From: an uncultured Chthonomonas sp.
GTDB taxonomy: Bacteria > Armatimonadota > Chthonomonadetes > Chthonomonadales > Chthonomonadaceae
Reading direction: 5' to 3'
DNA: 40,236 nucleotides
Assembly (NCBI GenBank): GCA_903919615.1
Contig: CAIXIX010000121.1
Coordinates: 1 to 40,236 of the forward strand
Positions 9,621-40,157 of the stretch are shown here, piece by piece (position 1 is the stretch's first letter; each line of letters opens with the position of its first letter). The position numbers and the translations under genes are program-made. The notes beneath the pieces were generated by a model. That model worked only from the letters and a program-made list of their open reading frames with translations. It was not told where the DNA came from and did not search any database.

Positions 9621-12600
9621 ATGACCGCAAGCGTGCCTCTTGTTCTTTCACAGTCGTTGCGTCGTCGAAGGAGACACTGCGTCCTAATGACCGTTTATGA
9701 GCAGACCAATGTCAATTTGGGCGGATTGTCATGTAACCTGTTGTCCCTGATTGACCGCCAGGTTGAGGCCACTCCTGATGCGACGGCGCTGATTTTTGAG
9801 GGCAGAACACTTACCTATCAAGAACTCAATCGCCGCGCAAACCAGCTTGCAAACTTTCTGGTAAAGCAAGGCGTGCGTCCGGAGACTCTCGTTGGGCTGT
9901 GTGTTGAACGCTCGTTCGAGATGGTAATCGGCATCCTGGGGATCTTGAAGGCAGGCGGAGCCTATGTGCCGGTGGACCCTGACTATCCGGCCGATCGCAT
10001 TAGATTTATACTGGAAGATAGTGCCGCGCAGATAATTCTCACCCAGAACCATTTGAAGGCTAGAACATCGCACTTTGGAGCAGCAATCTTGTGTATGGAT
10101 TCTGAACGAGAGCTGCTCGAACGCGAACCGATCACCGCACCCGATAATTCGTCGCACACACCCCAAGACCTTATCTACGTACTGTACACCTCCGGTTCCA
10201 CAGGCAAGCCAAAAGGTGTCATGCTTACGCACGATGCCATTGCAAACCATATGCACTGGATGCAACAGCACTATTGCATTAACTCAGAAGCTCGAATTTT
10301 GCAGAAGACGCCGTTTAGTTTCGATGCCGCAGGATGGGAGTTTCTTGTTCCATTGATGATTGGAGCCCGGCTTGTGATCGCTAGGCCCGGCGGCCACCTG
10401 GATCCCGACTATCTTGTGGATATTATTATTCGGTGTGGAATTACGGACATTACTTTTGTACCGTCGATGTTGAATGCTTTTCTGGAAGCGGAAAGCAGTC
10501 ACTTATGCGGATCACTTAAGCGCGTCTTCTGTGGAGGGGAGCAACTTTCTGCCGCGACCCGAGACCGATTTTTTGCGGCCTTGCCAAACTGCGATCTGCA
10601 CAACCATTATGGTCCAACTGAGGCAGCAATCGATGTCACTTACTGGCAATGCCACCGTGATGACACCGCTTCGGTGGTACCTATTGGCTGGCCAATTCCG
10701 AACGTTACGACGCGCATCTTAGATTCGCAAGGGAAGCGAGTGGGCATAAATGCGCCAGGTGAGCTATGTCTTGGAGGCATCTGCCTGGCACGAGGTTACT
10801 TAAATCGACCCGAGCTCACGGCCGAGAAGTTCATTCCAGACGTTTACAGCTCTGAATCCGGAGCCCGCCTATACAGAACCGGCGACCTGGCAAGGTGGCG
10901 CACTGATGGCAGTATCGAATATCTTGGCCGATTGGATTTTCAGGTGAAGCTCCGGGGGCAGCGAATTGAGCTCGGCGAGATAGAAGCAACGATTTTATCT
11001 CAATTGGTTGTGAAAGAGTGTGTGGTCGTGGCGCGAGAGGATCAGCCCGGTGATCAGCGTCTCGTTGCCTACGTCGTTTGTTGCTCCAGGACAAGTAATG
11101 ATTCGGATCTGGAAGAGCAGCTAAAAGAGACCTTACGTGGGCGTTTGCCAGAGTACATGGTGCCCGCGCATATTCTATTCCTGGATCGAATGCCCCTATC
11201 CGCTAACGGCAAGTTAGATCGCAAGGCGCTGCCCGCGCCAGATCTCAGTCAACTGGCGATGCCTTCCAACAATGGTCCCCTGACTTGGACCGAGGAGGTC
11301 TTGACAAAGATCTGGAGCGAAGTCCTGCGAGTTCCGGCGCCAGGATTGCATCAGAATTTCTTCGCGCTTGGCGGGCATTCACTTCTTGCAGTTCAGATTA
11401 CCTCCAGGATGCGTGCCGCGTTTGATGTATCGATCCCCATTCGGGCATTATTTACTGCGCCTACCATTTCGCAGCTAGCCAGTGAGGTGGATGCCATCAG
11501 GAGACAGGCGCCTGAATATGACTCCCGACAGGACCTCCATAATGAACTCGACACAGTTTCACTCTCGCCTGCACAGGTTTGGCTGGGATATGCGTGTATG
11601 CTCCATCCGGAAAGCCCGCAGTATAACTGCCCCATGCTTGTTCATCTAGAAGGCGAACTCAATCCCGCTGCCTTACATATCAGTATCCAGCGAATGGTGG
11701 AGCGACATGAGTCGCTCAGGTATGCATTCTCTATTGATGGGGGCACACTAGCGGTTCATCTTCGCGATGAGATGGTTGTCGAGATGCAGGTATTTGATCG
11801 GAACAGCATCTCTGTTTCGGTGGATTCCTTGGTTGAGGCCGAGATAAATCGTCCCTTCGATCTGGCAAATGACCCCTTAATCCGGTCCGCGCTATTCAGA
11901 ATTGATTTAACTCATCATCTGCTGTTATTGAACCTTCACCATTTGGTCTCTGATGGCTGGTCGGAACATGTTCTAATTCGTGAACTCGGTGCAAGTTACT
12001 CCTCTGCCAGTTCGGGATCAGCAGACGCGCTGCCTGCGGTAGCGGTACGCTATCGGGATTTCGCGTCCAGAATGCGCTGCATCCAGAGTTCAGCGGAATA
12101 CGCAGCCAACATGTCGTACTGGAACCATCAATTGAGTGATGTGCCGGTGCGCCTCACGATTCCCACGGATTACCCTCGCCCGATTATCTTGAGTGGTAAA
12201 GGCGCACAGATTTCCATTCATCTCCCGGCCGATCTTGTGACTGCCGTGCGTGAGTTGTCGCGGCGAAGCGGTGTCACACCCTTTATGACACTTATGGCGG
12301 CCTGGCAGGCGCTCCTGTTCAGGCACACCAGTCAGAACAAATTTGCCGTCTATTCACCCTTCGTAGGAAGAGACTCTGAGCAGACCGAGGGGTTGGTCGG
12401 TTATTGCGCAAATGTTTTGCCGGTTCGAGCGCAAGTTTTGGGCGACGATACCGTATCCACACTTCTTAGCCGTGTCCGCGGTACGGTGTTCGATGCCCTT
12501 GAGTTCCAGAATATCGGGCTGGCACAGCTAGACAACGCACCTGGCGTACAAACCCTGTTTGTTCTTCAGCCTGAAATGTCTGACCAGGTCGAATTTGGCG

Positions 12601-15600
12601 GCCTTCAGGTGCAATACCAACCTCTTCGCACGAAGACATCAAAATTCGAGTTGAGCCTGGATCTAACAGAAAATCGCAATGAGATTACCGGATACCTTGA
12701 GTTTAGTACCGATCTGTTCTCGCACAGGACTGTAGAACGTTTGGCAGACCAGTTTTGCACGCTGTTACGATCGTTTGTTCAGCATGCCGATCTCCCGATC
12801 TCCCGCATAAACATCGTGCCTGAGGCTGTACGCGATCAACTTGCGTGTTGGAACTCCACCGAGGTAGCACTGCCGGATGCGAAAGGAATCCATGAGCTCT
12901 TTGAGGCCAGAGCGGAAGAGACGCCATATGCTATCGCCGTTCAATGCGATGAAAAATCGCTGACATATTACGAACTAAACAGCGCGGCGAATAGGATTGC
13001 GCACCTGCTGATTTTGAAGGGCATAACGCCCGGAGGGCAGATCGCAATATGCGCAGAGCGCTCCATCGAGATGGTCACCGGTATCCTCGGGATAATAAAG
13101 GCCGGTTGCGCGTACATTCCACTCGATCCAGATCATCCCGTCCAGCGCCTCAAATATATCGCCGACAACGCCGGTGTCGCTGCGCTGATCTCAGTATCTG
13201 CCCTTTCAGAAAGAGTGCCCGATTGTTTAGAGCCCGTGATTCTCCTGGATCGAGATCGGGGTGAAATTGACGCACTCCCGAATAACAATCCGGGCTTGCA
13301 GGTGCCATTAGACGCGGCCGCCTATGTGATGTATACATCGGGGTCTACCGGGCAGCCAAAAGGCGTTGTCTACCCGCATCGCGGGCTGATAAATACCCTT
13401 ATCTGGATGCAATCCGTTCTCAATCTAAACACGGATGACCGCGTTCTGTTCAAGACGCCCTTTGGTTTTGACGTTTCCGGATGGGAGCTTTTCTGGCCGC
13501 TAATTAGTGGCGCCTCAATTGTCGTCGCAAAGCCTGGCGGACACCTGGATGTTAGGTACCTGATCGATACAATCGAGCAGTACTCGATTTCTACAGTTAA
13601 CTTTGTGCCCTCCATGTTGAACCTCTTTCTCGAGGCCTCCGATTGCGGGCAATGCAGCACGTTACGCAGAGTCATTTCAGCGGGCGAAGCGCTCACTTCA
13701 TCGACACGTGATCAGTTCTTTGAGAAGTTCAAACATGCCGAACTTCACAACATCTATGGCCCAACCGAGACAAATGGCATTACCTGGTTCCAGTGTCAGC
13801 CCGATGATACAGACTGCAGGATACCAATCGGTCGCCCAATTGCCAACAGCCAGGTCTGGATACTGGATGACGCGATGCAGCCCGTCACAATCGGTTCAAT
13901 CGGCGAAATCTATCTTGGCGGAGTGAATGTTGCATCTGGGTATCTCAATAGGGATGACTTGACCGCTGAGAGGTTCTTGCCAGACCCTTTCAGCCATGTG
14001 CAGAATGCGCGGCTCTACCGTACGGGAGACCTTGCGCGATGGCGTGAAGATGGCTGCGTTGAGTATCTTGGCCGATGCGACTATCAGGTGAAAATCCGCG
14101 GTCAGAGGATCGAGCTTGGGGAGATCGAGGTTGTTCTGAACGGACACGAGGCTGTTACTGAAACAGCAGTGCTTGCTCGTGAGGATTTTCCGGGCGACGT
14201 GAGGCTTGTGGCGTACGTTACGACAGAGGACAACGCCGTTGCAAACGATGAGCTTGAACTTGAGCTACAGGACGCAGTGCGACTGCGCTTGCCCGATTAT
14301 ATGGTTCCCAGCCAATTTGTATTTCTCGAGCGCTTCCCAATATCTGCGAATGGAAAGCTAGATCGTAAGGCGCTCCCAACGCCGGACCGTATCGCTGACG
14401 AGGGAGCAAACCTCACCGCACCCGTTACAGAAACTGAAAAACTCATTGCAGGTATCTGGTGTGATGTGCTTCGCCTTCCTTGTGTGGGCATCGACCAGGA
14501 CTTCTTTGCATTAGGTGGCCATTCGCTAACTGCATTACAGGTTTCGCTACGGCTGAGCAAAGCGCTGAGGGCCACCGTGCCGATGGACGCGCTGTTCAGC
14601 GCACTAACGATCAGGCGCCTATCGGCTGATGTGGACAATTTGGTCACTAGCGGTTCTGGAAACGTAGTTGATGAGGAGCCGATCGGGCATTCTGCGGTTG
14701 CCGTTATGTCGCCAATGCAGCGCTGGCTCGGATATGCCTGCGCTCAAAACCCTCATAGCGCGCTTTACAACATCCCCATTGTGCTTCATCTGAATGGAAC
14801 GCTAGATAAGGCAGCGCTTCAGGCCGCTCTCCAGCAGATTGTGAACAGACATGAACCGCTTCGCTCAAACTTCGTGGTTGAAGATGACAATCTAAGCCTG
14901 CTCATCAACGAATCGGTCAAGGTTCACCTTGAGTCAACAGACCTTTCAGATATGGACCAGCGCGAAGAATTGGCTGATGCAGCAATCCGGCAGGAGGCGT
15001 GTCGCGCCTTTGATCTTGCGAATGAGCCATTAATCCGTGCGAAGTTGTGGGATATGGCGCCGGATTGCCACATCCTTCTCGTGAACGTACACCATCTCGT
15101 ATTCGATGGTTGGTCCGAAGGCGTGCTGCTGCGCGAAGTCAGCGCGGTTTACAACGCATTTGTAACCGGAACTCCTAGTTCGTTGCCAGGCTTGCCCATT
15201 CGCTATCGCAACTATGCGGCATGGAAGCGAGAGAAGCAGAAGAGTGACGCATACGCTGCGCAATTATGCCACTGGAACGAGCAGCTTCGAGGTGTGCCCG
15301 CACAGCTTGAACTGCCAACCGATCGTCCGCGACCGCAGTCCGTTTCGCCGCGGGGTGGGCAGGTTCCGATAGCAATTTCACCGGAAATGGCTCATGCCCT
15401 CAATGATGTCTCCCGAAGACGCGGTGTAACGCTGTTTATGACCCTGATGGCAGCCTGGCAGTCGCTCCTGTTTAGATACTCTGGGCAGGAGGATTTTGTC
15501 GTATACTCTCCGTTTGCCGGCAGAACCGATCCGCAGGTAGATAATTTGATCGGGTACTTCGTGAACGTACTGCCAATTCGAGCATCGTTCAATGCTGGCA

Positions 15601-18593
15601 CCACGATCTCCGCACTGCTGCACCGTGTTCGCGAAATTTGCCTGGATGCCTTTGTTAACCAGGACGTCTCGTCCGAACAGATTGAGAGCGCTCCGCGCGC
15701 CCAAACACTGCTTGTTCTACAGAACACGCCTGTCCAATCGCTAAATATGCAAGGGGTCGATGTAACAAGGCAAAGCGTTCAAACCGAAACCTCCAAGTTT
15801 GAACTTAGTGTTGTGCTTTCAGAAAACGAGGATGGCATCGCGGGGTTCATAGAATTCAGTTCTGACCTGTTTGAAGAAGCGACCGCTGCCAGGGTCGGGT
15901 CTCATTTTCTGAATCTGATTGCAGCTTTTGCTTCCGGGGAAGATGTTCCGATTGCGCAACTCGATATGCTAAGCGTTGCTGAGCGTGATGAATTGGTGAG
16001 TTGGAACGAAACACAAACCGCATATCCTCGCGATATGTCGATTACAGAGCTTTTTGCCACTCAAGTTTCGGCGTCACCGAACGCAATAGCTCTAGTTTGT
16101 GGTAATCGAGAGTCGACCTATCATGAGCTTGATGGCATATCGAACACGCTCGCTGCAGTCATCACGGAACAGGGTATAGGGTTTGGCGACTGCGTTGGCG
16201 TTTACATGGACCGTTCTATTGAGCTGGTAGCAACAATCCTGGCCATTCTAAAAGTTGGAGCGGCTTACGTGCCGCTAGACACAGGGTATCCAAAGGACCG
16301 TGTGCGTAAAATGGTCGACACATGCGGTGTGAAGCTGATCGCGACGCGAAACTTCAGCTCCGTTGGCAAAATCTTTCCGGGCATCTGCTCCATCACCATT
16401 GAGTCCAGTGATGCGTATATATTGAATCCGCGCGTTTCGCCGCAAAGCACCTCGATTAATCCCGAATTGGCATGTTACGTGATGTTTACATCAGGATCGA
16501 CAGGCGAGCCAAGAGGGGTGATCATTCCGCATCGGGGTGTCGTACGGCTTGTAAAGGGCTCGAACTGCGTTACAGCGAGCCCGGGCGACCGATTTCTGCT
16601 CGTGTCTCCCACCTCCTTCGATGCCTCAACACTAGAGCTCTGGGCGCCGCTTCTCAACGGCGCCACACTTTATATCTTTGAGCCACAAGTTCCCACATTA
16701 CGAGAACTTATCGACTTCGTTGCCGAAAACCAGATCAGCACCCTTTGGGTAACCTCAAGTCTCTTCCAGCTAATAATGTTGGAGAATCCAGATGGTCTTT
16801 CCTCAGTGAAAACGATGTATACGGGTGGTGATATTGTTTCTCCTGCGGCTGCACGGGCCTTTCTTTCGGCCAATCCGAGCAGCGTACTGCTAAACGGATA
16901 CGGCCCAACCGAGAATACGACCTTTACAACCTGTCATGTGCTGAGCAGCGCAGAGATGGTTGAAGAGCCTGTCCCGATTGGGGTGCCGATATCAAATACC
17001 TCCGTTTGGATTCTGGATAGCGCACAGAACCTTGCGCCAATCGGTGTTCCCGGAGAACTCTGTGCTGCTGGTGATGGTCTTTCGCTAGGATACATCAATC
17101 GCCCGGATTTGAATGATAATCTGTTTGTCACATTCCATTCTCCGCATGGGCCGATCAGGGTGTATCGAACTGGCGACCTGGCACGCTGGCGGAGCGATGG
17201 TGTTATTGAGTTTCTTGGGCGTATCGATAATCAGGTTAAGATTAGCGGATTTAGAATAGAGCCTGGTGAGATAGAGGCTGTTTTGGAAGGGCATCCGGAT
17301 GTCGTTCAGTGTGCAGTGCAGGCCGAAACAGACGCAACTGGTTTGAAATGCCTCGTTGCGTGGATTGCATCGAGAGCCGATATGACAGAACTCGAAAAGG
17401 AGCTTCGCAGCTTCGTTAAACAGCGGCTGCCAGAATATTGTGCGCCAGCCAGGTATCGAATTATTGAGCATCTTCCGCAATCGCCAAACGGAAAACTGGA
17501 CCGCAAAGCCCTGCCAGCTCTTAAAGCTCGTGATATTGAGATTGATGGATTTACCGCTGCTCGAACCGAGGATGAGAAGAAGCTGTCCCAGATATGGGCA
17601 AACTTATTGCATGTATCAACAATTGGGATTGATCAGGACTTCTTTGGGCTTGGCGGCCATTCGTTGATGGCGATCCGTATGTTCGCCCGAATTGATGCCG
17701 AGATGGGGCTGAAAGGGAATGTATCTCTCCTGCATCAGGCGCCAACTGTGCGAGAGCTAGCACGTATGCTGAGAAGCAACCTGCACTCCTCAAATAAGTT
17801 CATAAATCCAGTCCAGCCACTAGGAGCGCTTCCTCCGCTGTTCTGCATGTACCGCCTCGACGGCCTCGACATGTGCTACCGCGAACTCGCTATTGCGCTA
17901 GGCCAGAACCAGCCTGTCTATGGATTGCGGCCGCACACTGCTAGCGCGTCGGATGTGCCACCAACAACGATTGCGGAGATCGCTGCCGAATGCGTCCGAG
18001 ATATTAGAGACCTATATCCTGATGGTCCTTACCTGTTGGCTGGCTCATCCTTTGGTGGAACGATCGCTTATGAGGCTGCGCAGCAGCTTCGCGCGGAGGG
18101 AGCTGAGGTTGCGCTGGTGGCTATGTTTGATACCTGTGGAACGGGTGCATGGACTGCACGACTTCCTAGACCGCTGCCAGCAAAGCTTCTCGCGCATGTG
18201 AAAACTCTGTTGGCGTTACCACCCAAGGAAAGGTTGGCTTACATACGCAATAGAATTGGGCACCTTGACAATCCATTCGGAGAGGACGAAGACGCTGCCG
18301 AACTGCGCGCTGAAATCAAGAGGCTGCAGGACGCGCATATGAAGGCTCTCTGGCATTATAGACCCGTTGCATATGCCGGCAGGATGATTACGTTTAAGGC
18401 CGCTGTGCGCAATCCGTTCCGATACGATGACGACCCCACCTTGTGGTGGGGAGATTTGATTGCACCCGAACAGATCGAGACGACCGCTGGTAATCACTAC
18501 ACCATGCTGCAAGCCCCGCATGTTATGGAACTTGCCGATCGGCTGAACAGGCACATTGCCAGTGCACTCGAAAGTGTCGGCTATCGCACCTGA
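9621..18593 (+). CDS. Three-module non-ribosomal peptide synthetase (A-T-C-A-T-C-A-T-TE)
   Basis: The product of up to 2990 residues should assemble and release a tripeptide in the cytoplasm. Order: A1 (about 40-535), T1 (Ser587 in LGGHSL), C1 (HHLVSDG, His773-Gly779), A2 (about 1090-1585), T2 (Ser1635), C2 (HHLVFDG, His1824-Gly1830), A3 (about 2138-2630), T3 (Ser2681), TE (GSSFG with Ser2810, Asp2837, His2959). All key residues are present. There is no leading C domain, so module 1 starts the chain, and no epimerisation domain. Hand-aligned specificity codes are DAWTFGHIDK (A1), DVWNIA then an atypical shortened loop (A2) and DALWYGGTFK (A3, close to valine codes). The ATG at 9687 (AAGGAG 13 bases upstream) is a better start than 9621, whose first 22 residues are Arg-rich and unlike the family. 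No MbtH or phosphopantetheinyl transferase gene is nearby. A GH81 gene follows at once. Confidence 0.95.
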   Translation: MTASVPLVLSQSLRRRRRHCVLMTVYEQTNVNLGGLSCNLLSLIDRQVEATPDATALIFEGRTLTYQELNRRANQLANFLVKQGVRPETLVGLCVERSFEMVIGILGILKAGGAYVPVDPDYPADRIRFILEDSAAQIILTQNHLKARTSHFGAAILCMDSERELLEREPITAPDNSSHTPQDLIYVLYTSGSTGKPKGVMLTHDAIANHMHWMQQHYCINSEARILQKTPFSFDAAGWEFLVPLMIGARLVIARPGGHLDPDYLVDIIIRCGITDITFVPSMLNAFLEAESSHLCGSLKRVFCGGEQLSAATRDRFFAALPNCDLHNHYGPTEAAIDVTYWQCHRDDTASVVPIGWPIPNVTTRILDSQGKRVGINAPGELCLGGICLARGYLNRPELTAEKFIPDVYSSESGARLYRTGDLARWRTDGSIEYLGRLDFQVKLRGQRIELGEIEATILSQLVVKECVVVAREDQPGDQRLVAYVVCCSRTSNDSDLEEQLKETLRGRLPEYMVPAHILFLDRMPLSANGKLDRKALPAPDLSQLAMPSNNGPLTWTEEVLTKIWSEVLRVPAPGLHQNFFALGGHSLLAVQITSRMRAAFDVSIPIRALFTAPTISQLASEVDAIRRQAPEYDSRQDLHNELDTVSLSPAQVWLGYACMLHPESPQYNCPMLVHLEGELNPAALHISIQRMVERHESLRYAFSIDGGTLAVHLRDEMVVEMQVFDRNSISVSVDSLVEAEINRPFDLANDPLIRSALFRIDLTHHLLLLNLHHLVSDGWSEHVLIRELGASYSSASSGSADALPAVAVRYRDFASRMRCIQSSAEYAANMSYWNHQLSDVPVRLTIPTDYPRPIILSGKGAQISIHLPADLVTAVRELSRRSGVTPFMTLMAAWQALLFRHTSQNKFAVYSPFVGRDSEQTEGLVGYCANVLPVRAQVLGDDTVSTLLSRVRGTVFDALEFQNIGLAQLDNAPGVQTLFVLQPEMSDQVEFGGLQVQYQPLRTKTSKFELSLDLTENRNEITGYLEFSTDLFSHRTVERLADQFCTLLRSFVQHADLPISRINIVPEAVRDQLACWNSTEVALPDAKGIHELFEARAEETPYAIAVQCDEKSLTYYELNSAANRIAHLLILKGITPGGQIAICAERSIEMVTGILGIIKAGCAYIPLDPDHPVQRLKYIADNAGVAALISVSALSERVPDCLEPVILLDRDRGEIDALPNNNPGLQVPLDAAAYVMYTSGSTGQPKGVVYPHRGLINTLIWMQSVLNLNTDDRVLFKTPFGFDVSGWELFWPLISGASIVVAKPGGHLDVRYLIDTIEQYSISTVNFVPSMLNLFLEASDCGQCSTLRRVISAGEALTSSTRDQFFEKFKHAELHNIYGPTETNGITWFQCQPDDTDCRIPIGRPIANSQVWILDDAMQPVTIGSIGEIYLGGVNVASGYLNRDDLTAERFLPDPFSHVQNARLYRTGDLARWREDGCVEYLGRCDYQVKIRGQRIELGEIEVVLNGHEAVTETAVLAREDFPGDVRLVAYVTTEDNAVANDELELELQDAVRLRLPDYMVPSQFVFLERFPISANGKLDRKALPTPDRIADEGANLTAPVTETEKLIAGIWCDVLRLPCVGIDQDFFALGGHSLTALQVSLRLSKALRATVPMDALFSALTIRRLSADVDNLVTSGSGNVVDEEPIGHSAVAVMSPMQRWLGYACAQNPHSALYNIPIVLHLNGTLDKAALQAALQQIVNRHEPLRSNFVVEDDNLSLLINESVKVHLESTDLSDMDQREELADAAIRQEACRAFDLANEPLIRAKLWDMAPDCHILLVNVHHLVFDGWSEGVLLREVSAVYNAFVTGTPSSLPGLPIRYRNYAAWKREKQKSDAYAAQLCHWNEQLRGVPAQLELPTDRPRPQSVSPRGGQVPIAISPEMAHALNDVSRRRGVTLFMTLMAAWQSLLFRYSGQEDFVVYSPFAGRTDPQVDNLIGYFVNVLPIRASFNAGTTISALLHRVREICLDAFVNQDVSSEQIESAPRAQTLLVLQNTPVQSLNMQGVDVTRQSVQTETSKFELSVVLSENEDGIAGFIEFSSDLFEEATAARVGSHFLNLIAAFASGEDVPIAQLDMLSVAERDELVSWNETQTAYPRDMSITELFATQVSASPNAIALVCGNRESTYHELDGISNTLAAVITEQGIGFGDCVGVYMDRSIELVATILAILKVGAAYVPLDTGYPKDRVRKMVDTCGVKLIATRNFSSVGKIFPGICSITIESSDAYILNPRVSPQSTSINPELACYVMFTSGSTGEPRGVIIPHRGVVRLVKGSNCVTASPGDRFLLVSPTSFDASTLELWAPLLNGATLYIFEPQVPTLRELIDFVAENQISTLWVTSSLFQLIMLENPDGLSSVKTMYTGGDIVSPAAARAFLSANPSSVLLNGYGPTENTTFTTCHVLSSAEMVEEPVPIGVPISNTSVWILDSAQNLAPIGVPGELCAAGDGLSLGYINRPDLNDNLFVTFHSPHGPIRVYRTGDLARWRSDGVIEFLGRIDNQVKISGFRIEPGEIEAVLEGHPDVVQCAVQAETDATGLKCLVAWIASRADMTELEKELRSFVKQRLPEYCAPARYRIIEHLPQSPNGKLDRKALPALKARDIEIDGFTAARTEDEKKLSQIWANLLHVSTIGIDQDFFGLGGHSLMAIRMFARIDAEMGLKGNVSLLHQAPTVRELARMLRSNLHSSNKFINPVQPLGALPPLFCMYRLDGLDMCYRELAIALGQNQPVYGLRPHTASASDVPPTTIAEIAAECVRDIRDLYPDGPYLLAGSSFGGTIAYEAAQQLRAEGAEVALVAMFDTCGTGAWTARLPRPLPAKLLAHVKTLLALPPKERLAYIRNRIGHLDNPFGEDEDAAELRAEIKRLQDAHMKALWHYRPVAYAGRMITFKAAVRNPFRYDDDPTLWWGDLIAPEQIETTAGNHYTMLQAPHVMELADRLNRHIASALESVGYRT

Positions 18594-21081: not shown

Positions 21082-22092
21082 ATGGCCCTATTACAAACCA
21101 CGAATCTCACCAAGATATACGGCAATCGAATGATAGCCGTAAACGGAATTAACCTCAGCATTGAGAAAGGGTGGGTCTACGGGTTGCTTGGGCCAAACGG
21201 CGCAGGCAAGACCACCCTCGTCAAGCTCCTGCTTGGCCTGCAGGCGCCAACCGCAGGACATGCCGAGCTTTTTGGCAAACGCGTTACGCCTAACTCCTCA
21301 GATATCCGTCAGCGAATCGGGTACCTTCCAACGAACCCTAAGTTTCCGCCGACGATGACGCCCATAACCTACCTCGATCTGCTCGGACAGCTTTTCGGTA
21401 TGACGAAAGAGGAGCGGATGCCGAGACTTGCGGGGCTCATTCGGGCCGTAGATCTGCTTCCGGCAGCCAGCAGACCCATCAAGAGTTTTTCCACAGGCAT
21501 GACAACAAGGTTAGGCATCGCCGCTTCTCTGCTGAACGATCCAGACCTGTTGATATGGGATGAGCCGACAGCGGGGCTCGATCCAGCCGGACGTAAATAT
21601 ACGCTGGATCTGCTTCGTGAGCTTGGCAAGACCAAAACCATTATCGTCTCCTCCCACATACTTACAGATATCGACCGCGTATGTGACCATGTCGGAATCC
21701 TTCACGAAGGCAAGATGATATTTGGCGGTTCGGTGCGTGAGATGAAAGAGACGATCGGCCGCAACAACGTAGACATTGAGATTGATGCTGAACCTGAACA
21801 GGCAGATCAGCTTTGCCGCCGACTGGAGGGTATTCCCGAGGTTCTTGGCTTTGAGCGCAAAGGGAATTTTATCGAGATTCGCTTTGCTCCTTCCGAACGG
21901 CTCGCTGCGCCGCTGGGCAAGCTGCTGCTGCTGGCCGACGAGGTCGGCGTAGACATACTCGCAATCGGTTCGACACGCAGTCAAACAGAAGATGCCTTTC
22001 TGCACCTTCTGGAGGTGGATCAATCTGATGGCTTCTCACGCGGCTTCGGCGCCATTTCGCCGAACAGCAATGGCTTGGACAGCGCTCTTTAA
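21082..22092 (+). CDS. ABC transporter ATP-binding protein
   Basis: This 336-residue cytoplasmic ATPase would power the membrane protein encoded directly downstream. It shows Walker A (GPNGAGKTT, Lys43), a Q-loop region, Walker B (LLIWDEP), D-loop (AGLDP) and the switch His in SSHIL. The signature motif reads FSTGM instead of LSGGQ, a variation seen in some ABC-2-type exporters. A C-terminal region of about 110 residues (VDIEIDAEPEQADQL onward) resembles the accessory domain of this class. I choose the ATG at 21082, with GAGG six bases upstream, over the TTG at 21070. The coding end overlaps the permease start by 65 bases. Its cargo is unknown; export of the NRPS product is possible by position only. 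Confidence 0.92.
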   Translation: MALLQTTNLTKIYGNRMIAVNGINLSIEKGWVYGLLGPNGAGKTTLVKLLLGLQAPTAGHAELFGKRVTPNSSDIRQRIGYLPTNPKFPPTMTPITYLDLLGQLFGMTKEERMPRLAGLIRAVDLLPAASRPIKSFSTGMTTRLGIAASLLNDPDLLIWDEPTAGLDPAGRKYTLDLLRELGKTKTIIVSSHILTDIDRVCDHVGILHEGKMIFGGSVREMKETIGRNNVDIEIDAEPEQADQLCRRLEGIPEVLGFERKGNFIEIRFAPSERLAAPLGKLLLLADEVGVDILAIGSTRSQTEDAFLHLLEVDQSDGFSRGFGAISPNSNGLDSAL

Positions 22093-22753
22093 GACAGAGT
22101 TACAAGCGCTCACACGGTCGTGGGTGGTGCGGGGCTGGCTGATTGCTCTGGTCTTGACAGAGCTTTTTACGCTCGCGATTACTGTGCCAAAGAATGGCGG
22201 ATCGACGGTGCCGGCATCATCATTGATCACCGCCAACCTGATGCTCTTTCTGTTTGCATGGAGCGTAGTGATCATAGTGCTTGGCGCTGGTTCGGTTTCG
22301 CTTGAGTCGGATGTGATCTCGGACAGTATTCTCAGCAGGCCCTGTACCCGCACACAATTTATCTCTGCAAAGTTTGCGTCTCGCGTTCTTGTAGTGCTCG
22401 GCGTCTACTTCATTGCAACTGCCATTGCGGGGTTCTCGGCGTGGCGCTATGGCGCAAACGACATGACAATAACGACTCTCGCCACAGGCGTAGGTGTGGT
22501 CGCTCTGGCCGTGTTGTTTCTGCTGTCGCTAGGCATCATGTTCAGCGTCCTCTTCAACAACACCGTTACTGCAGTGGCATCGCTGCTGCTAATTTGGTAT
22601 GTGTGCCACACAGATATTTGGCGCGGTAGGCGCAGACTATCTTTCACCGCAGAGCCTCGCTCGCAACCTCCCCAGAATGCTGAAAGATGCCAACGCAGCG
22701 CAGCTTGCAGATGGTGTGGCCACACATACTGGCATCACACTCACGTTTTCTAA
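22028..22753 (+). CDS. ABC-2-type permease, N-terminal part (frameshifted gene)
   Basis: The open frame codes for the first five membrane helices of an ABC-2-type permease: about residues 20-40, 55-80, 107-130 and two between 143 and 190. The ATG at 22028 has GGAGGTG ten bases upstream and lies inside the end of the ATPase gene. After LLLIWYVC (about 22615) the frame continues into 48 residues rich in Arg, Cys, His and Trp that look like out-of-frame translation. The proper continuation is in the +1 frame from about 22600, encoded by the next entry. One missing GT in the short run TATGTGTGCC would explain the break. The two pieces are best read as one gene, 22028-23489, either broken or carrying a sequencing error. 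Confidence 0.75.
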   Translation: MASHAASAPFRRTAMAWTALFKTELQALTRSWVVRGWLIALVLTELFTLAITVPKNGGSTVPASSLITANLMLFLFAWSVVIIVLGAGSVSLESDVISDSILSRPCTRTQFISAKFASRVLVVLGVYFIATAIAGFSAWRYGANDMTITTLATGVGVVALAVLFLLSLGIMFSVLFNNTVTAVASLLLIWYVCHTDIWRGRRRLSFTAEPRSQPPQNAERCQRSAACRWCGHTYWHHTHVF

Positions 22754-23489
22754 GTCATTAGATGTGCAAACAGCCGAGCAGCCCGCCAACTATGCTATCG
22801 AGTCTCCCGAAGGAACAGTTTATACGGCGGAATCCGCAGTATACGAAAAGCCATCACACAGCGTGGTTCTATCCGGCCTGACCTTGCCGGCCGGCGCAAA
22901 GCTCAAGGTAACGTCGAGAAACATCACGGATGCAGGTGGTGTGGCTGTGAGCCCGGCAGCTAACTCTGTTGAACTTGAAGTGCCGCCGGATGCTTCAGCG
23001 CCTGCTGTAGCTGCTGTCAGCCCCGCTCCTGCATCTGTAGGAGCTATACCTGCCGTGGCTAAAGAACCCGTGCATGCCGTAACATCTAAGAAGCCCGTGG
23101 ACATGCGTGCGCCAGCGGTCCTGCAGTGTGAAGCGACAGCGAGCAGCGTTAAGATCTCATATTCAAGCACGATGGACGCTAAAGAGGTCGAGACTCTGGA
23201 TAACTATGTCGTGGAGAGCCCAGTTGGTAACACGCAGCATCCTCATGCTGCGATGTACTCGCCGACAGCACACTCCGTTTTGCTCAGCGGTTGCAGCTTT
23301 CAACCGGATGATCCAGTACGGGTGACGGTGAAGCATGTGCACAGCGCAAACGGCGTGCCCATCTCAAACAGCAGAAATTCGGCAACCTATGCGGCATTAA
23401 CTACCTGGAAATACGTCCTGGGCTTCGGGCTGCCTACGATTATTGCGTTCATTGTTTCGGTCGTATGGTTCGCACGCAGGGATCTGTAG
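22599..23489 (+). CDS. ABC-2-type permease, C-terminal part with two Ig-like repeats
   Basis: This frame holds the rest of the permease rather than a separate gene: its first Met has no ribosome site, it overlaps the upstream frame, and it begins with a membrane/loop segment (QIFGAVGADYLSPQSLARNLP) typical of ABC-2 permeases. Two repeats of about 90 residues follow (about 22716-22975 and 23110-23397). They share NYxxESPxG and HSVxLSG and resemble bacterial Ig-like domains of the SbsA/Big_5 type. An Ala/Pro/Val-rich linker separates them. The end is one membrane helix and the ABC-2-like tail WFARRDL. The Ig modules therefore sit in the last extracytoplasmic loop, between helices 5 and 6. GH29 starts 24 bases later. 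Confidence 0.7.
   Translation: MCATQIFGAVGADYLSPQSLARNLPRMLKDANAAQLADGVATHTGITLTFSKSLDVQTAEQPANYAIESPEGTVYTAESAVYEKPSHSVVLSGLTLPAGAKLKVTSRNITDAGGVAVSPAANSVELEVPPDASAPAVAAVSPAPASVGAIPAVAKEPVHAVTSKKPVDMRAPAVLQCEATASSVKISYSSTMDAKEVETLDNYVVESPVGNTQHPHAAMYSPTAHSVLLSGCSFQPDDPVRVTVKHVHSANGVPISNSRNSATYAALTTWKYVLGFGLPTIIAFIVSVVWFARRDL
22716..23397 (+). repeat. Two tandem Ig-like (Big_5-type) protein repeats
   Basis: Translated copies align by eye over about 90 residues. Copy 1 has TFSKSLDVQTAEQPANYAIE and HSVVLSGLTLPAG. Copy 2 has SYSSTMDAKEVETLDNYVVE and HSVLLSGCSFQPD. The copies are divergent enough that the duplication is not recent. A low-complexity Ala/Val/Pro linker of about 40 residues lies between them. 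Confidence 0.7.
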
Positions 23490-25852: not shown

Positions 25853-27034
25853 ATGCAAAACGTATTGAGTAACCCCAAACCTGGCGCCACGTCAAACCTG
25901 GCGCACCTACCCTACATCGACTGCCTTAGAGCGCTAGCCTGTATTGCCGTGATAGCGGTGCATACGATGTCTATGACGTTGCCTCCTATTCATTCGGGCG
26001 TCGTCTACAATGCGTTATTGTCGATTGCAGGTCGTGGGTGGCTCGGCGTTCACCTATTTCTTGTTCTATCGGGGTTTTGCCTTTACCATGGGGTGCTAAA
26101 GCGTGCGACGGTTGCAGGCGCTTCTATTGATCTAAAGAGATTCGGTGCGAGGAGATGCCGGAGAATATTGCCGCCTTATTACCTGGCGCTCCTGATATCC
26201 GCATTGGCAGGGATAGCCGCATCAATACGCAACCATCTCGGCGTACTGGCGAGCTTTAACGGTGTTGCAGACATTCCATCGCATCTGCTCATGATTCACA
26301 ATTTTAGCTCTCGCACGATGTACTCGATCAACTCGCCGTTTTGGAGCCTCGCGCTCGAAAGCCAGCTCTATCTTGTCTTCCCACTCTTTGTCTGGATCGC
26401 GTCTAAACGAGGGCTTGCGGCACTCGGCGTGCTAGCTTTTACAATATCTGCACTTTATCAGTTCGGTGTATCTCATATCGTCGGACGCCAACCAGAGTGG
26501 CACCTCTTTGGCGCCGCCTATTATGCACTGCCCGGCCGATGTTTTGAGTTCGCGGTTGGGATGATTGCAGCCGCGCTGGTTCTGCGCCCTGTAAAATATC
26601 AGGGCAAGATAGCAGCAGTTGTGGTCGCTCTGTTGGCATGGCCAGCCTGGGCTGCTGCTGCAGATCAAATTCGATATACACCGTTTAGGGACCAGATATG
26701 GGGGCTAATATTTGCCAGCGCAGCCATCCTCTGTGCTAAGATTCCGAAGGAGATTTTCGCGTCGCGAGCAGGGAGAGTCTTGCCTTGGATTGGAGCCGTA
26801 TCGTATTCGACCTATCTTTACCACGACCCACTGATCAATATCTTTAACCCGGGCAGGTTTGGGCTGGCGATTATCAACGATGCGAGCTTTGTCCTTTTTG
26901 GGATGATTCGCGCCGCACTTTTGATTGCATTTGGAGGAGTTATGTACCACTTGTGGGAGGAACGGTTTATCGATAGTAAACGGGCCGCCTCGCGACGGAT
27001 GCCTGACAACTTACAGGAGAATCTACTGAGTTGA
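25853..27034 (+). CDS. Acyltransferase 3 family membrane protein (OafA/YrhL-like)
   Basis: The 393-residue integral membrane protein belongs to the acyltransferase 3 family, which transfers acetyl or other acyl groups to sugars of envelope glycans, antibiotics or lipids. The N-terminal signature is present: YIDCLRALACIAVIAVH with the conserved His in the first helix, GVHLFLVLSGF in the second, and RRCRRILPPYYLAL after it. About ten hydrophobic segments follow. It has no SGNH domain. The gene follows the ankyrin gene by 62 bases, with a GGGGAGGA some 15 bases before the ATG. Its stop codon overlaps the TTG start of the DUF1592 gene. It could modify a surface glycan or the NRPS peptide; neither is shown. 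Confidence 0.9.
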   Translation: MQNVLSNPKPGATSNLAHLPYIDCLRALACIAVIAVHTMSMTLPPIHSGVVYNALLSIAGRGWLGVHLFLVLSGFCLYHGVLKRATVAGASIDLKRFGARRCRRILPPYYLALLISALAGIAASIRNHLGVLASFNGVADIPSHLLMIHNFSSRTMYSINSPFWSLALESQLYLVFPLFVWIASKRGLAALGVLAFTISALYQFGVSHIVGRQPEWHLFGAAYYALPGRCFEFAVGMIAAALVLRPVKYQGKIAAVVVALLAWPAWAAAADQIRYTPFRDQIWGLIFASAAILCAKIPKEIFASRAGRVLPWIGAVSYSTYLYHDPLINIFNPGRFGLAIINDASFVLFGMIRAALLIAFGGVMYHLWEERFIDSKRAASRRMPDNLQENLLS

Positions 27035-29598
27035 TCTCTCATTACAAGGCTGTGGGATTAGGCGCGGTTCTGCCGATGGCGTCACTTTTACTCGTAAGTG
27101 TTGCGGCGCAGCCTCCTGAGCTTGCGCTGAATGAATATGATCGGGTTATCCAACCCTTTATTCAGACGCACTGCGTTAAGTGCCATGGCCCGGTCAAACA
27201 GCTCGGCAAGATCAGGCTTGATACTCTTCCTGCGACTTTCGGTGAACCTGCGATAAAACTAAAATGGGCCGAGGTCATCAATGTGATGAACGGCCATCAG
27301 ATGCCTCCGCCAACTGAAAAGCAGCCTACGGTTGAAGCGTCAGGCAAGTTTACGGATTCAATTTCCAGGCAGCTAGCTCATGCCGAAGTCGCTGGTCGCT
27401 CAACCCATGTCGTCCTCCGCCGCCTCAATCGTGCCGAATACAACAACACGATTCGAGATCTCATCGGGGTCGATTTCAACCCTGCCGATCCGTTCCCTGA
27501 AGACCCTTCCGCAGGTGGATTTGACAATATCGGTCAGGCGCTTACCGTATCGCCGCTCCATGCGGAGATGTACTATCAGGCTGCGCGGCAGATTTTGGAT
27601 AGAGCGCTTGTAGACGGAACTCAGCCTCCGGCCATCAAGTGGCGCTTCGAGCCACGAGAGAACCAGGAGGGAATGGACAGGGTGCGCGTTAAGCGCGACG
27701 GCCAATCGATCTTACTAAACAACGGGGCCAATCCGGTTGAGAATGGGCTTACCGTTATTCACCATGACAGCTGGGACAAGGGGATTGGCTTCCGAGGATT
27801 TACCGTGCCGGCAGAGGGCGATTATATCCTTCGCTTTAGAGCAGCAGGGCGCGTGCCGGGGCGCGACGAAGTCGTTGCATCTGCCGAGAAGATCCTGAAG
27901 CAGCGTTACGACGAATCGATGGCATCCAATCCCGCCGGCAAGGTGTATCACGAGTCGGCAATGAAGTCGGATCTTGAGCACTATCGCACACACCGAATGT
28001 ACAACTACGGTCCGCCAAGAATCAAGATCACCCTATCGCTCGGCGGCGCCCCTTACGTTATCTCCGAGATGGACGTGGACGCACCAGAATCTGCGCCAAA
28101 AACTTACGAGGTTAAGGCGCATTTTACACGGCAGGATGCTGGAGTTGAACTGCACTACGCCTACGATATTCCGCACTACCTTGAGAACTTCTGGATGCAG
28201 GGCAAGGACAGTTTTGCGCGCCCAGTCCTCTTGTTCGACTGGGTCGAGATCGAGGGCCCGATCTATTCTGGCTGGCCGCCGCCATCGCATCGGAAAATCA
28301 TGGGTGATGTGAGCGTGGGAACGGGCGTGGTCGCTGAAAGCAATGCTGCGCGGACGGTTCTGAAACGGTTTATGACGCGAGCCTATCGCCGGCCCGTAAC
28401 ATCACGCGAGGTCGAATCCCGGTTGGGGCTGTTCACACGTTTACGGGCAGACAAACCGAGCTTTGTCGAGGCGCTTAAGCCTGCGCTTGCATCGGTACTA
28501 ACCTCGCCAGATTTCCTGTTTCTCGTTGAGCCAGTTCATGCTGTGGGCAGTTCCGAGAAGCTGAACGGGTATGAACTGGCGTCCCGCTTATCCTACTTCC
28601 TCTGGTCGAGCATGCCGGATGACGAACTCTTCAAGCTTGCCGCTTCCGGGGATGTCAAAAGACCGGATGTGTTGGCTCACCAGGTCGATAGGATGCTGGC
28701 AGATGCGAAGAGCGAGGCTTTCGTTAAGAACTTCGCCGGGCAGTGGCTGGGCCTGAGAAGGGTAGGTGGAAACCCACCTGTTCAGAACCTGTATCCAGAT
28801 TACGATCGCCATTTGGAAATCTCCATTGTGCGGGAGTCTGAAGGTTTCTTCTCCGAGATCTTGCATCACAATCTAGATGCAAGAAATCTCGTAAAGAGCG
28901 ACTTCGTCACAGTGAACGAGCGGCTGGCGCGATTTTACGGGATCCCTGGAGTTAAGGGAGATGCCATTCGAAAAGTTGCTGTATCGCCAGAGGTGCATCG
29001 GGGCGGGATCGTAACGCAGGCTGCAATCCACACGATTACTTCAAATGGCACGCGTACGTCGCCCGTATCGCGCGGCGTCTGGGTTTTGCGAACTTTGCTG
29101 GGCGCAGACCCCGGATTGCCAGTCGCAAATGTAGGCGAAATCGCATCTAAAGTGCCTGGAATAGATCGCGCAACGGTGAGGCAGCGGCTTCAGATCCATC
29201 GCCAGAATCCCTCTTGCGCAAGGTGTCATGATAAGATCGACCCGCTTGGATTCGCGCTTGAGAACTACAATGCGTGCGGAGAGTGGCGCAACCAGGAGGG
29301 GCACGGCTATAACGGCCGGATCGAGAAAGACGATCCGGTGATTGATACCAGTTCGACCATGCCGGATGGCACCTCTATACAGGGGGTCACAGGGCTGCAG
29401 GCGCAGATTCTCAAGCATGAAGATCAGTTTCTTGGTAATCTGGCATCCCAGATAATGACCTACGCGCTTGGCAGAGAGCTTGGCTTTTCCGATAGATCGG
29501 CAGCATCGGCAGCGGTAATGCGCATGAAGAAGAGCGGATATACCTTGCGATCGTTGATCACTTCGGTCGTTACGTCACCTCAGTTCACGTCGAGATAG
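27031..29598 (+). CDS. DUF1587/DUF1592/DUF1588/DUF1585 protein with two haem-binding motifs
   Basis: The 855-residue exported protein (signal peptide about 1-27) has a cytochrome-c-like N-terminal domain of the planctomycete type with CVKCH (Cys48-His52). It continues with the DUF1587 start (VVLRRLNRAEYNNTIRDLIG), a beta-rich middle that may bind a ligand, then the DUF1595/1592/1588 region (YELASRLSYFLWSSMPDDEL, FAGQWLGLR, GGIVTQA) and the DUF1585 end. A second CARCH lies at Cys729-His733. Such proteins probably bind haem and act in envelope redox chemistry, but no reaction is established. The TTG start overlaps the preceding stop codon by four bases, and AGGAG lies 11 bases upstream. A DUF1552 gene follows by ten bases, the usual partner. 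Confidence 0.92.
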   Translation: MISHYKAVGLGAVLPMASLLLVSVAAQPPELALNEYDRVIQPFIQTHCVKCHGPVKQLGKIRLDTLPATFGEPAIKLKWAEVINVMNGHQMPPPTEKQPTVEASGKFTDSISRQLAHAEVAGRSTHVVLRRLNRAEYNNTIRDLIGVDFNPADPFPEDPSAGGFDNIGQALTVSPLHAEMYYQAARQILDRALVDGTQPPAIKWRFEPRENQEGMDRVRVKRDGQSILLNNGANPVENGLTVIHHDSWDKGIGFRGFTVPAEGDYILRFRAAGRVPGRDEVVASAEKILKQRYDESMASNPAGKVYHESAMKSDLEHYRTHRMYNYGPPRIKITLSLGGAPYVISEMDVDAPESAPKTYEVKAHFTRQDAGVELHYAYDIPHYLENFWMQGKDSFARPVLLFDWVEIEGPIYSGWPPPSHRKIMGDVSVGTGVVAESNAARTVLKRFMTRAYRRPVTSREVESRLGLFTRLRADKPSFVEALKPALASVLTSPDFLFLVEPVHAVGSSEKLNGYELASRLSYFLWSSMPDDELFKLAASGDVKRPDVLAHQVDRMLADAKSEAFVKNFAGQWLGLRRVGGNPPVQNLYPDYDRHLEISIVRESEGFFSEILHHNLDARNLVKSDFVTVNERLARFYGIPGVKGDAIRKVAVSPEVHRGGIVTQAAIHTITSNGTRTSPVSRGVWVLRTLLGADPGLPVANVGEIASKVPGIDRATVRQRLQIHRQNPSCARCHDKIDPLGFALENYNACGEWRNQEGHGYNGRIEKDDPVIDTSSTMPDGTSIQGVTGLQAQILKHEDQFLGNLASQIMTYALGRELGFSDRSAASAAVMRMKKSGYTLRSLITSVVTSPQFTSR

Positions 29599-29608
29599 GG
29601 GCATCGCA

Positions 29609-30964
29609 ATGAGTTTTCATTTCAACAATAGCAAGCCGATCTCACGTCGCACCGCGCTGCGCGGCGCAGGCGCGTGTATTGCCCTGCCGCTGCTGGAGGC
29701 GATGATGGGTTCGTCGGCATCTGCTTCGGAATCCACCTACAAGCCACTACCACATTCTCGTGTGAAACCGTGCCCTCGTGTCATCTTCTGCTACGTGCCA
29801 AACGGCGTCAACATTATGGAATGGGTACCAAAAACAGCTACAGGTGGGCCGAATGTATCGCCAACGCTGGCAGCGCTCGAACAGCATCGTGAGCATTTTT
29901 CTGTGCTGAGCGGCATGGGTCACCCTAAAGCCACAGGCGGCCATTCTGGCGCAGACACCTGGCTTACAGGCGCAGACCTTACCCGCGTTCCTGGAAAAGA
30001 CTATACGAACTCCATTTCTGTGGATCAGGTCATTGCCGAGAAGATTGGTCAGAAGACCCGATTGCCATCGCTGGAGATTGGCGATCTATCTGGCACGGGG
30101 AGCGCACTGCATAGCCACACACTTGCCTTCGATCGTAACGGCACACCGCTTCCTGCTGAGAACAGCCCACTGCGTCTCTTCGAGAGACTGTTCGTCTCTG
30201 AGGATGCGGCCTCCAGGAGCGCAACCCTCAAGCGGTATGCAGAGAAGCGAAGCATTCTGGATGAAATCATGTCGGATGCGAAGTCGCTGCACGATCGCAT
30301 TGGATCCGCCGATCGCGCAAAGGTCGAGGAATATCTAGCGTCCGTACGCGAGACCGAATTGAGGGTGCAGAGGCAGGTCGCCTGGATCGACGTGCCAAAG
30401 CCAGAGATTTCTTCGAACGGGTTGCAGCTCAATAGCCAGCCATCTAATGGGCACGATCGCCCCATGTGGCTGGACGTAATGCTTGAACTCAGCTATCTTT
30501 CGTTCATCACCGATACCACGCGAGTAATCACCTTTGAATGGTCGCGCGAGGCTGGCGGGTACGGCGGCGGCGGTGAAAACCACCACGAGCTGTCTCATCA
30601 TGGCGGAGATCCTGGTATGCTTGCGAAGCTCGCTGCAATTGATCGCTTCCATCTATCAAAGCTGGATCGTTTCCTCACCTTCCTTGCATCAACCGAAGAG
30701 GGCGGCAGGACCATGCTGGATCATACGATGATCATGTTCGGATCGGGAATGAACAGCGGAGAAAAGGGAGATCACTCTCCAAAGAATCTGCCTCTGCTGG
30801 TCGCTGGTGGCGCAGCCTGGGGGTTGAAACATGGCAAGCATCTCGCCCACAATCCGGATAATCACCCTCCAATGGCGAATGTTCTGGTAACACTGATGCA
30901 GAAGATGGGTGTCGAAACCGACAAGTTTCAGGATGCCACAGGGACGTTGACCGGGCTGGCATAA
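29609..30964 (+). CDS. DUF1552 family protein, Tat-like signal
   Basis: The 451-residue protein begins with a twin-arginine-like signal (SRRTALRGAG at residues 12-21, then a hydrophobic stretch), which suggests folded export to the periplasm. The body matches the DUF1552 family: RVIFCYVPNGVN, SVLSGMGHP, GGHSGADTWLTG, FEWSREAGGYGGGGENHHELSHH and MFGSGMNSGEKGDHSPKNLP. The arrangement resembles sulfatase-like or DUF1501-like proteins with many His and Asp residues that may bind metal, but no activity is known. It is found next to DUF1592-type proteins in many Planctomycetes, Verrucomicrobia and Acidobacteria. Here the genes are 10 bases apart and are probably functional partners. Confidence 0.92.
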   Translation: MSFHFNNSKPISRRTALRGAGACIALPLLEAMMGSSASASESTYKPLPHSRVKPCPRVIFCYVPNGVNIMEWVPKTATGGPNVSPTLAALEQHREHFSVLSGMGHPKATGGHSGADTWLTGADLTRVPGKDYTNSISVDQVIAEKIGQKTRLPSLEIGDLSGTGSALHSHTLAFDRNGTPLPAENSPLRLFERLFVSEDAASRSATLKRYAEKRSILDEIMSDAKSLHDRIGSADRAKVEEYLASVRETELRVQRQVAWIDVPKPEISSNGLQLNSQPSNGHDRPMWLDVMLELSYLSFITDTTRVITFEWSREAGGYGGGGENHHELSHHGGDPGMLAKLAAIDRFHLSKLDRFLTFLASTEEGGRTMLDHTMIMFGSGMNSGEKGDHSPKNLPLLVAGGAAWGLKHGKHLAHNPDNHPPMANVLVTLMQKMGVETDKFQDATGTLTGLA

Positions 30965-38465: not shown

Positions 38466-40157
38466 ATGGTTTTACTTGAAGACGAAGACTATCATGCTCT
38501 TAAAAGCGGAGCTGACGAGGGCGAGCAACTCAAACGAGAGTTGCTCGCCCTCCAGATCCATGCCCGCCAGAAAGCCGACGAGGCTGAAGCCGAGGCTAAG
38601 CAAGCAAAGGCGGAGATAGAGCGTCTGAAACTCGTGGCGCAGCGGCTTGAACATGACAACGGCATACTCATGGAGCACTACGCGCTCTCCCGGCATCGCC
38701 AGTTCGGAGCTTCCTCCGAGAAGACACCCATCGGCCAGGTACAGATGCTCTTCGACGAAGCCGAGGCTTGCGCCTCGCCTGACGCCTCGGAACCAGAGAT
38801 CACTGTCAGCGCCCATGTGCGCACAAAGAAGACGAGGGGCAAACGCGAGATCGACCTGTCCAAGCTGCCCGTCGAAGAGATCTCATACGACAGTCCGGAG
38901 GATGAGCACCTGTGCCCCGCATGTTCCGCTCAGATGCACCGCATAGGCGAAGAGGTCAGAAGCGAACTCAAGTTTGTTCCTGGTCACTTCGTACATGTCA
39001 AGCACATCCGGGGCGTATTCGGCTGCCGTCCATGTGAACGTAACGAGATTAGCACCCCGATCATCACCACTCCCATGCCGAAGCCAGCCTTTCCGAAGAG
39101 CCTGGCATCCGCATCCCTTGTGTCGTACATCATGGTTCGAAAGTATGTTGAAGGCCTTCCGCTCTACCGACAGGAGCAGGTGTTCACACGCGGCGGCATC
39201 ACGCTGCGCAGACAGAACCTCGCGAACTGGGTAATAGCTGGTGCCGTCTGGCTGGAGCATATCTTCAAGGCGCTGCATGCAGAACTACTGCAGCAAGACA
39301 TCGCTCATGCGGATGAAACCGAGTTGCAGGTGCTCAGAGAAGCGGGCCGAGCCGCCCAGACAAAATCACGAATGTGGGTGTACACAAGTGGACGATACAG
39401 CTATCCGATCCGGCTGTACGAATATCAGTGCACGCGTGCGGCGGAGCATCCGTGTAATTTTCTGACTGGCTTTGCCGGATATCTGCATGTGGATGGTTAC
39501 GGAGCGTACAAACTGCTGCCGGACACCATTACGCTCGCTGGATGCTGGGCGCACGCCAGGCGGCACTTTACTGACGTTATCAGTGTGCTTCCCAAAGAAG
39601 CTCAGAAGAGCTGCAACACGCCTGCGCATATCGGCCGTAATTTCTGCAACGACCTGTTTGATATTGAGCGCGCGCTAAAGGACAAGACGCCGGAGGAGCG
39701 CTACGTTGCCCGCCACGAGCACAGTCGCAAGGTGTTGGACAAATACTGGGAGTGGCTGAATGTGATGGTGTTGAACGTGACAGCAAGCAGCAAGCTTGGC
39801 GAGGCTATACGATATTCAATAAACCAGTGGGAATCTCTGACTAGCTTCATGCAGGATGGCCGCCTTGAGATCGACAACAATCGCGCGGAGCGTACGGTGA
39901 AACCTTTCGTAATAGGTCGCAAGAACTGGCTGTTCGCATGTTCAGAAGGAGGAGCGAAATCTAGCGCGATAGTCTACAGTATCGTGGAAACAGCTAAGGA
40001 CAACGGCCTCGATCCGTTTGCGTACCTGATACACCTCTTCGAGCAGTTGCCGAACATGGACCTAAAAGACGATGCGGCCATAAAGCGACTTCTGCCGTGG
40101 GACGAAACAATCCAAAGCAAGTGCCGAGCCGGCGGCGCCGCGACCAAGTCCGCATAA
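38466..40157 (+). CDS. tnpC: IS66 family DDE transposase TnpC
   Basis: The 563-residue transposase catalyses cut and strand transfer of the element. The N-terminal part is a coiled coil rich in Glu/Lys (about 15-65) followed by RHRQFGASSEKTP, the IS66 helical domain. A zinc-finger-like module follows, with CPAC and a later CRPC. The DDE triad is Asp283 (HADETEL), Asp343 (HVDGYGAY) and Glu468 (LEIDNNRAERTVKP). All are present and the frame is intact, so the protein is probably active. There is no ribosome site before the ATG; see the promoter entry. Confidence 0.96.
   Translation: MVLLEDEDYHALKSGADEGEQLKRELLALQIHARQKADEAEAEAKQAKAEIERLKLVAQRLEHDNGILMEHYALSRHRQFGASSEKTPIGQVQMLFDEAEACASPDASEPEITVSAHVRTKKTRGKREIDLSKLPVEEISYDSPEDEHLCPACSAQMHRIGEEVRSELKFVPGHFVHVKHIRGVFGCRPCERNEISTPIITTPMPKPAFPKSLASASLVSYIMVRKYVEGLPLYRQEQVFTRGGITLRRQNLANWVIAGAVWLEHIFKALHAELLQQDIAHADETELQVLREAGRAAQTKSRMWVYTSGRYSYPIRLYEYQCTRAAEHPCNFLTGFAGYLHVDGYGAYKLLPDTITLAGCWAHARRHFTDVISVLPKEAQKSCNTPAHIGRNFCNDLFDIERALKDKTPEERYVARHEHSRKVLDKYWEWLNVMVLNVTASSKLGEAIRYSINQWESLTSFMQDGRLEIDNNRAERTVKPFVIGRKNWLFACSEGGAKSSAIVYSIVETAKDNGLDPFAYLIHLFEQLPNMDLKDDAAIKRLLPWDETIQSKCRAGGAATKSA

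Follow-up and report, generated by a model that had tools for sequence, protein, structure and literature searches.

Permeases of the ABC-2 kind (type V) work as dimers with two ATPases, and their substrates are mostly moved outwards (PMC8386196). The type V transporters, represented by ABCG, ABCA and Wzm, have six helices per permease, cytoplasmic N- and C-termini, a drug-export-type ATPase and an extracytoplasmic helix element after TM5, and they carry re-entrant helices between TM5 and TM6 (PMC8386196). Extra extracellular domains on an ABC-2-type membrane part are known from the type V/VI hybrids of B. subtilis, YhcHI, YhaQP, LnrLMN and NatAB, where they consist either of a sheet of five strands flanked by helices or of a coiled coil; Ig-like domains do not appear in the text on these exporters (PMC11466899). 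LptFG and MacB (types VI and VII) also hold a periplasmic domain within the permease, but this is a beta-jellyroll or a MacB domain, set in another membrane architecture that lacks re-entrant TM5-TM6 helices (PMC8386196).

The locus described here lies on the 40,236-nucleotide stretch of DNA that we analysed (the window) and comprises two overlapping genes, for an ABC ATPase and its permease. It has the six helices, the terminal orientation, the ATPase type and the helix element after TM5 in common with type V transporters; the loop that holds re-entrant helices in type V members has here an amphipathic helix followed by about 200–240 residues of Ig-like modules. With the B. subtilis hybrids it shares the principle of an ABC-2-type membrane part bearing an additional extracellular domain, a comparison made by description only. 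The initial annotation knew of no described class with such a layout. Literature searches on ABC-2 loops bearing Ig-like domains, with a scope that took in few of the subscription journals, returned nothing relevant, so that the Ig type in loop 5-6 appears new within the literature searched, but the addition of an extracellular domain to an ABC-2 exporter is not (PMC11466899).

We interpret the locus as a type V-like two-gene ABC exporter whose SbsC/Big_5-type Ig modules in loop 5-6 act as a periplasmic docking arm, with a probability of roughly 0.6. The anatomy of the Ig-bearing permease is well supported: the domain layout, its conservation, the selection acting on it, the coupling of the two genes and the fold of module 1 are established directly.

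The ATPase and permease gene pair

The ATPase gene (21082..22092, + strand) encodes a DrrA-like protein of 336 residues, the partner of the permease, and its start at 21082 is likely the correct one when judged against the relatives. The Walker A, signature (FSTGM) and Walker B motifs are all present, together with the stretch DEPTAGLDP, and the gene adjoins that of the permease; among the relatives, the G018 copy of the ATPase gave no match to a simple signature pattern. The best NCBIfam match is the DrrA family TIGR01188, over the full length, and because its 207.8 bits fall below the curated cut-off of 312.45, the ATPase is not a member of this family by the curated rule. The two genes overlap by 65 bases (22028..22092, +), with a GGAGG ahead of the permease start; in most loci the overlap measures 65–71 bases and GGAGG likewise precedes the permease start, and the two proteins are therefore probably translated together.

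In the window the permease is spread over two open frames. The first (22028..22606, +, the end being approximate) covers the cytoplasmic N-terminus and helices 1–5, and the second (22599..23489, +) covers the remainder of helix 5, an amphipathic helix, Ig-like module 1 of the Big_5/SbsC type (22692..22988, +), a low-complexity Ala/Pro linker modelled with low confidence (22989..23108, +), Ig-like module 2 of the Big_5 type (23109..23399, +), and helix 6 with the cytoplasmic RDL end (23400..23489, +).

The permease matches Pfam ABC2_membrane_2 (E 4e-5) and ABC2_membrane_4 (E 9e-5), in both cases under the curated cut-offs. NosY-type permeases belong to these Pfam families, and the weak matches would suit an ABC machine of NosFY type that does mechanical work in place of transport, its periplasmic arms using ATP-driven motion to act upon the envelope or a protein undergoing maturation. 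No nos or cuproenzyme genes adjoin any copy among the neighbours of the loci fetched, and no sequence in the PDB was matched when the helix part of the permease served as the query. Such a machine is thus distinctly unlikely, and an exporter remains the preferred reading.

The predicted topology is that of a six-helix permease with both termini inside, as judged from the hydropathy and the placement of charges across ten sequences and from the predicted models. The positive charges lie in the N-terminus and in loop 2-3, which contains a conserved CTRxQ stretch. These features support a cytoplasmic location of the N-terminus, loop 2-3 and the RDL end, and place loop 5-6 outside, so that the Ig-like repeats are predicted on the outer side of the membrane, where the initial annotation had put them. 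Only the window copy has a hydrophobic peak at its Ala/Pro linker; neither the relatives nor the model have a helix there.

Distribution of the Ig-bearing permease

When the second frame alone was compared with 101 genomes near the window, it found full-query matches in six (E 6e-63 to 4e-53) and two-piece matches in three more, all of them within longer open frames. Two further matches were set aside, one in G086 that sits in an unrelated ORF and a weak one in G014. Joined across the frame change, the window protein aligns over its whole length of 486 residues with the relatives at 43–48% identity (36% for G066), and the shift-free full-length homologues come from nine Armatimonadota genomes belonging to four families other than that of the window. 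Homologues with Ig-like inserts between the last two helices, looked for at the suggestion of the initial annotation, are thus found in nine other genomes of the phylum. Their layout is the same: five helices, the Ig-like modules (two, or three in one genome) and a sixth helix ending in RDL, of which ARRDL is the version seen in the window. The three modules in one loop occur in the G066 relative (L040:336-2060, - strand), and the gene of another relative, G026, is divided between two contig ends.

The Ig-bearing permease is present in about 10 of the 291 genomes of the phylum set, that of the window included, and in the window's own family it was met in one of the 17 genomes searched, the window's. 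Its function is therefore dispensable, a point that speaks against our interpretation. A contig scan with the window's own Ig part as the query gave no match, while the same scan with an alignment of the relatives gave eight loci, all from Armatimonadota, reached through two narrow peptide patterns; tblastn against plasmids gave no match. We conclude that the Ig-bearing layout is real, conserved but rare, and known from Armatimonadota only within the searches run; the scan beyond the phylum rested on narrow patterns, and other phyla may hold copies.

The frame change in the window copy

The frame change (22598..22610, +) sits within helix 5, after the sequence LLLIWYV in the alignment with the relatives, all nine of which have a single frame across this site. 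The end-to-end alignment of the joined frames with shift-free relatives bears out the succession of five helices, two Ig-like repeats and a final helix that was initially proposed. We read through the frame change solely for the comparison with relatives and for structure prediction. Over 296 codons the second frame stays open and retains the conserved residues; the frame change is therefore either recent or a sequence error, and the window copy is either a recent pseudogene or a product of such an error. With its gene frameshifted, the permease in the window's own genome is thus either non-functional or misrecorded.

Two other readings of the split gene were weighed. The second frame has an ATG at 22599 and could be a genuine separate gene for an Ig-like protein, next to a truncated permease; its start, however, shows no evident full membrane helix or signal peptide, the join lies inside helix 5 and the relatives are all fused, which makes this reading very improbable. 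The permease and the Ig part were found as separate genes in no genome of the 291-genome phylum set, in agreement with the view that they form one protein. Hardest to credit is a programmed frame change yielding both a short five-helix form and the full form: neither frame is interrupted and both are well conserved in protein sequence, but the shift is absent from every relative and the site shows no slippery heptamer. Our reading of the window copy remains that of a recent pseudogene or of an error in the sequence.

Fold and conservation of the Ig-like modules

The assignment of the two repeats to the Big_5 type holds through the relatives: Pfam Big_5 is matched above its curated cut-off in four of them (L034, L032, L036 and L040), while the window's own copy, with 17.9 bits, stays under the curated 23.6. 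For the G021 protein, AlphaFold gives a monomer model of medium confidence (mean pLDDT 77.9), built on an alignment of only 8 sequences, in which helices 5 and 6 are set apart by two distinct beta domains and one helix, residues 207–218, follows TM5. When superimposed onto the S-layer protein SbsC, module 1 of this model matches one domain with a Z-score of 14.7 and an r.m.s. deviation of 1.7 Å over 97 residues, at 26% identity, and it matches SbsB with a Z-score of 12.9. SbsC (PDB entries 2ra1, 4uic and 4uj6) is also reached by a sequence profile search (E 0.006), so that module 1 shares both fold and sequence with it; SbsC is a surface-layer protein and not a transporter. Module 2 has the same strand order as module 1 in the G021 model. 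The VIA-align matches listed, mainly those of module 1, include no transporter, which is not evidence of absence. Structure prediction of the frame-corrected window protein, which the initial annotation had proposed together with the ATPase and which was run here on the permease as a monomer, gives the same arrangement of the two beta domains at lower confidence than for G021 (mean pLDDT 69.5), a few residues at the join differing from those in the alignment.

In three closely related genomes, the modules have dN values of 0.03–0.11 against dS values of 0.68–1.32, and nonsynonymous change amounts to about 3–9% of synonymous change among these three closest relatives. Both modules are thus under purifying selection. 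In a module tree, the first and the last modules fall into two groups across genera, with support values of 94/92 that lie under the tool's threshold for a firm branch; the exception is G066, where both the middle and the last module join the first group, on long branches. The separate grouping of Ig1 and Ig2 across genera suggests that the pair is older than the split of these genera. The linker is variable: an Ala/Pro stretch is present in the window, as first noted, but its length and sequence vary between relatives. The RDL ending is conserved. Elsewhere in the phylum, 13 of 14 other Big_5-like stretches have no membrane helices adjoining them in their open frames, so that the fusion to a permease looks specific to this family. 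In G031, a separate 667-residue protein free of membrane helices (L041:3703-5703, + strand) contains a Big_5 module related to these.

Proposed function and relatives with other inserts

The periplasmic partners of ABC exporters are often separate proteins that the pump recruits. In the present case the permease itself contains the periplasmic part, whose position between helix 5 and helix 6 would make the modules stand in the periplasm over the exit side of the pump. We infer a dimeric assembly, an export direction and a docking role: two ATPases and two permeases would form a 2+2 exporter, and with two SbsC/Big_5-type modules on each permease, four Ig modules would stand over the exit of each dimer. 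Most probably they act as a built-in docking arm that keeps a partner, an envelope polymer or the cargo near the exit, and would in this way take over the job done by separate periplasmic subunits in related systems.

A permease of the same family devoid of modules is found in G254 (L051:1522-2235, + strand; 237 residues), where it adjoins the same kind of ATPase. Its amphipathic stretch leads directly to helix 6, and the two ends of the loop are the same as in the Ig-bearing form. Comparison of the two forms would fit an insertion of the modules at the point that is empty in G254, although a tree with long branches gave no direction.

The main rival to docking sees in the Ig modules passive spacers, or a cap that stabilises the pump, without a binding partner; the pump would then work like any other ABC-2 exporter. 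The G254 protein manages with the same helices and no modules, the number of modules ranges from two to three and the linker is poorly conserved, as might be expected of such parts. Against this, the order of the modules is retained across several families, and both are under purifying selection, although a folding constraint alone could cause the latter. On balance we regard a spacer or cap as rather unlikely and prefer the docking arm.

A more distant permease, found in G074 (L052:199-1899, - strand) and G229 (L055:1139-2792, + strand, split over two frames), adjoins its ATPase in both genomes and carries an HlyD-type adaptor region (HlyD_3, E 2e-12; Biotin_lipoyl_2) in the outward loop between helix 3 and helix 4. 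A trace of this form is also present in G051. No description of an HlyD/ABC-2 permease fusion was found in a literature search with the same journal coverage as above. A sister permease with an HlyD-type adaptor in another outward loop suggests an export-pump scaffold that accepts periplasmic parts. We tentatively propose, as an idea with somewhat less than an even chance, that a single ABC-2 pump scaffold bears different periplasmic parts, Ig modules in loop 5-6, an HlyD-type region in loop 3-4 or none, the insert setting the partner or the envelope route. If true, this modular lineage would form a class of ABC exporters that has not been described. The occurrence of module-free and HlyD-bearing relatives in the same phylum makes the role of the inserted part approachable by comparison and deletion.

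Gene neighbourhoods

At the loci fetched, we found no conserved neighbourhood beyond the ATPase/permease pair, and no neighbour that names a cargo or a partner. The surroundings differ by genus: one genus has purine biosynthesis genes, another a GlmL-like and a sialate esterase-like gene (both named by eye), and a third an alginate-export-type porin, which in G031 (L036:6054-7380, - strand, two open frames) is encoded upstream of the ABC pair and on its strand.

In the window, the neighbours of the ABC pair are an NRPS and two glycosidases, one of family GH81 and the other an alpha-L-fucosidase. The NRPS (9621-18593, + strand) is 2990 residues long and comprises three adenylation, two condensation and three carrier domains as well as a thioesterase; the GH81 gene begins six bases past it and is followed by the ABC pair. 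Further along (27031-30964, + strand), adjacent genes encode a PSCyt1/DUF1592-1588-1587-1585 set and a DUF1552 protein, a combination best known from Planctomycetes, and an IS66-type transposase gene (38466-40157, + strand) lies close to the contig end.
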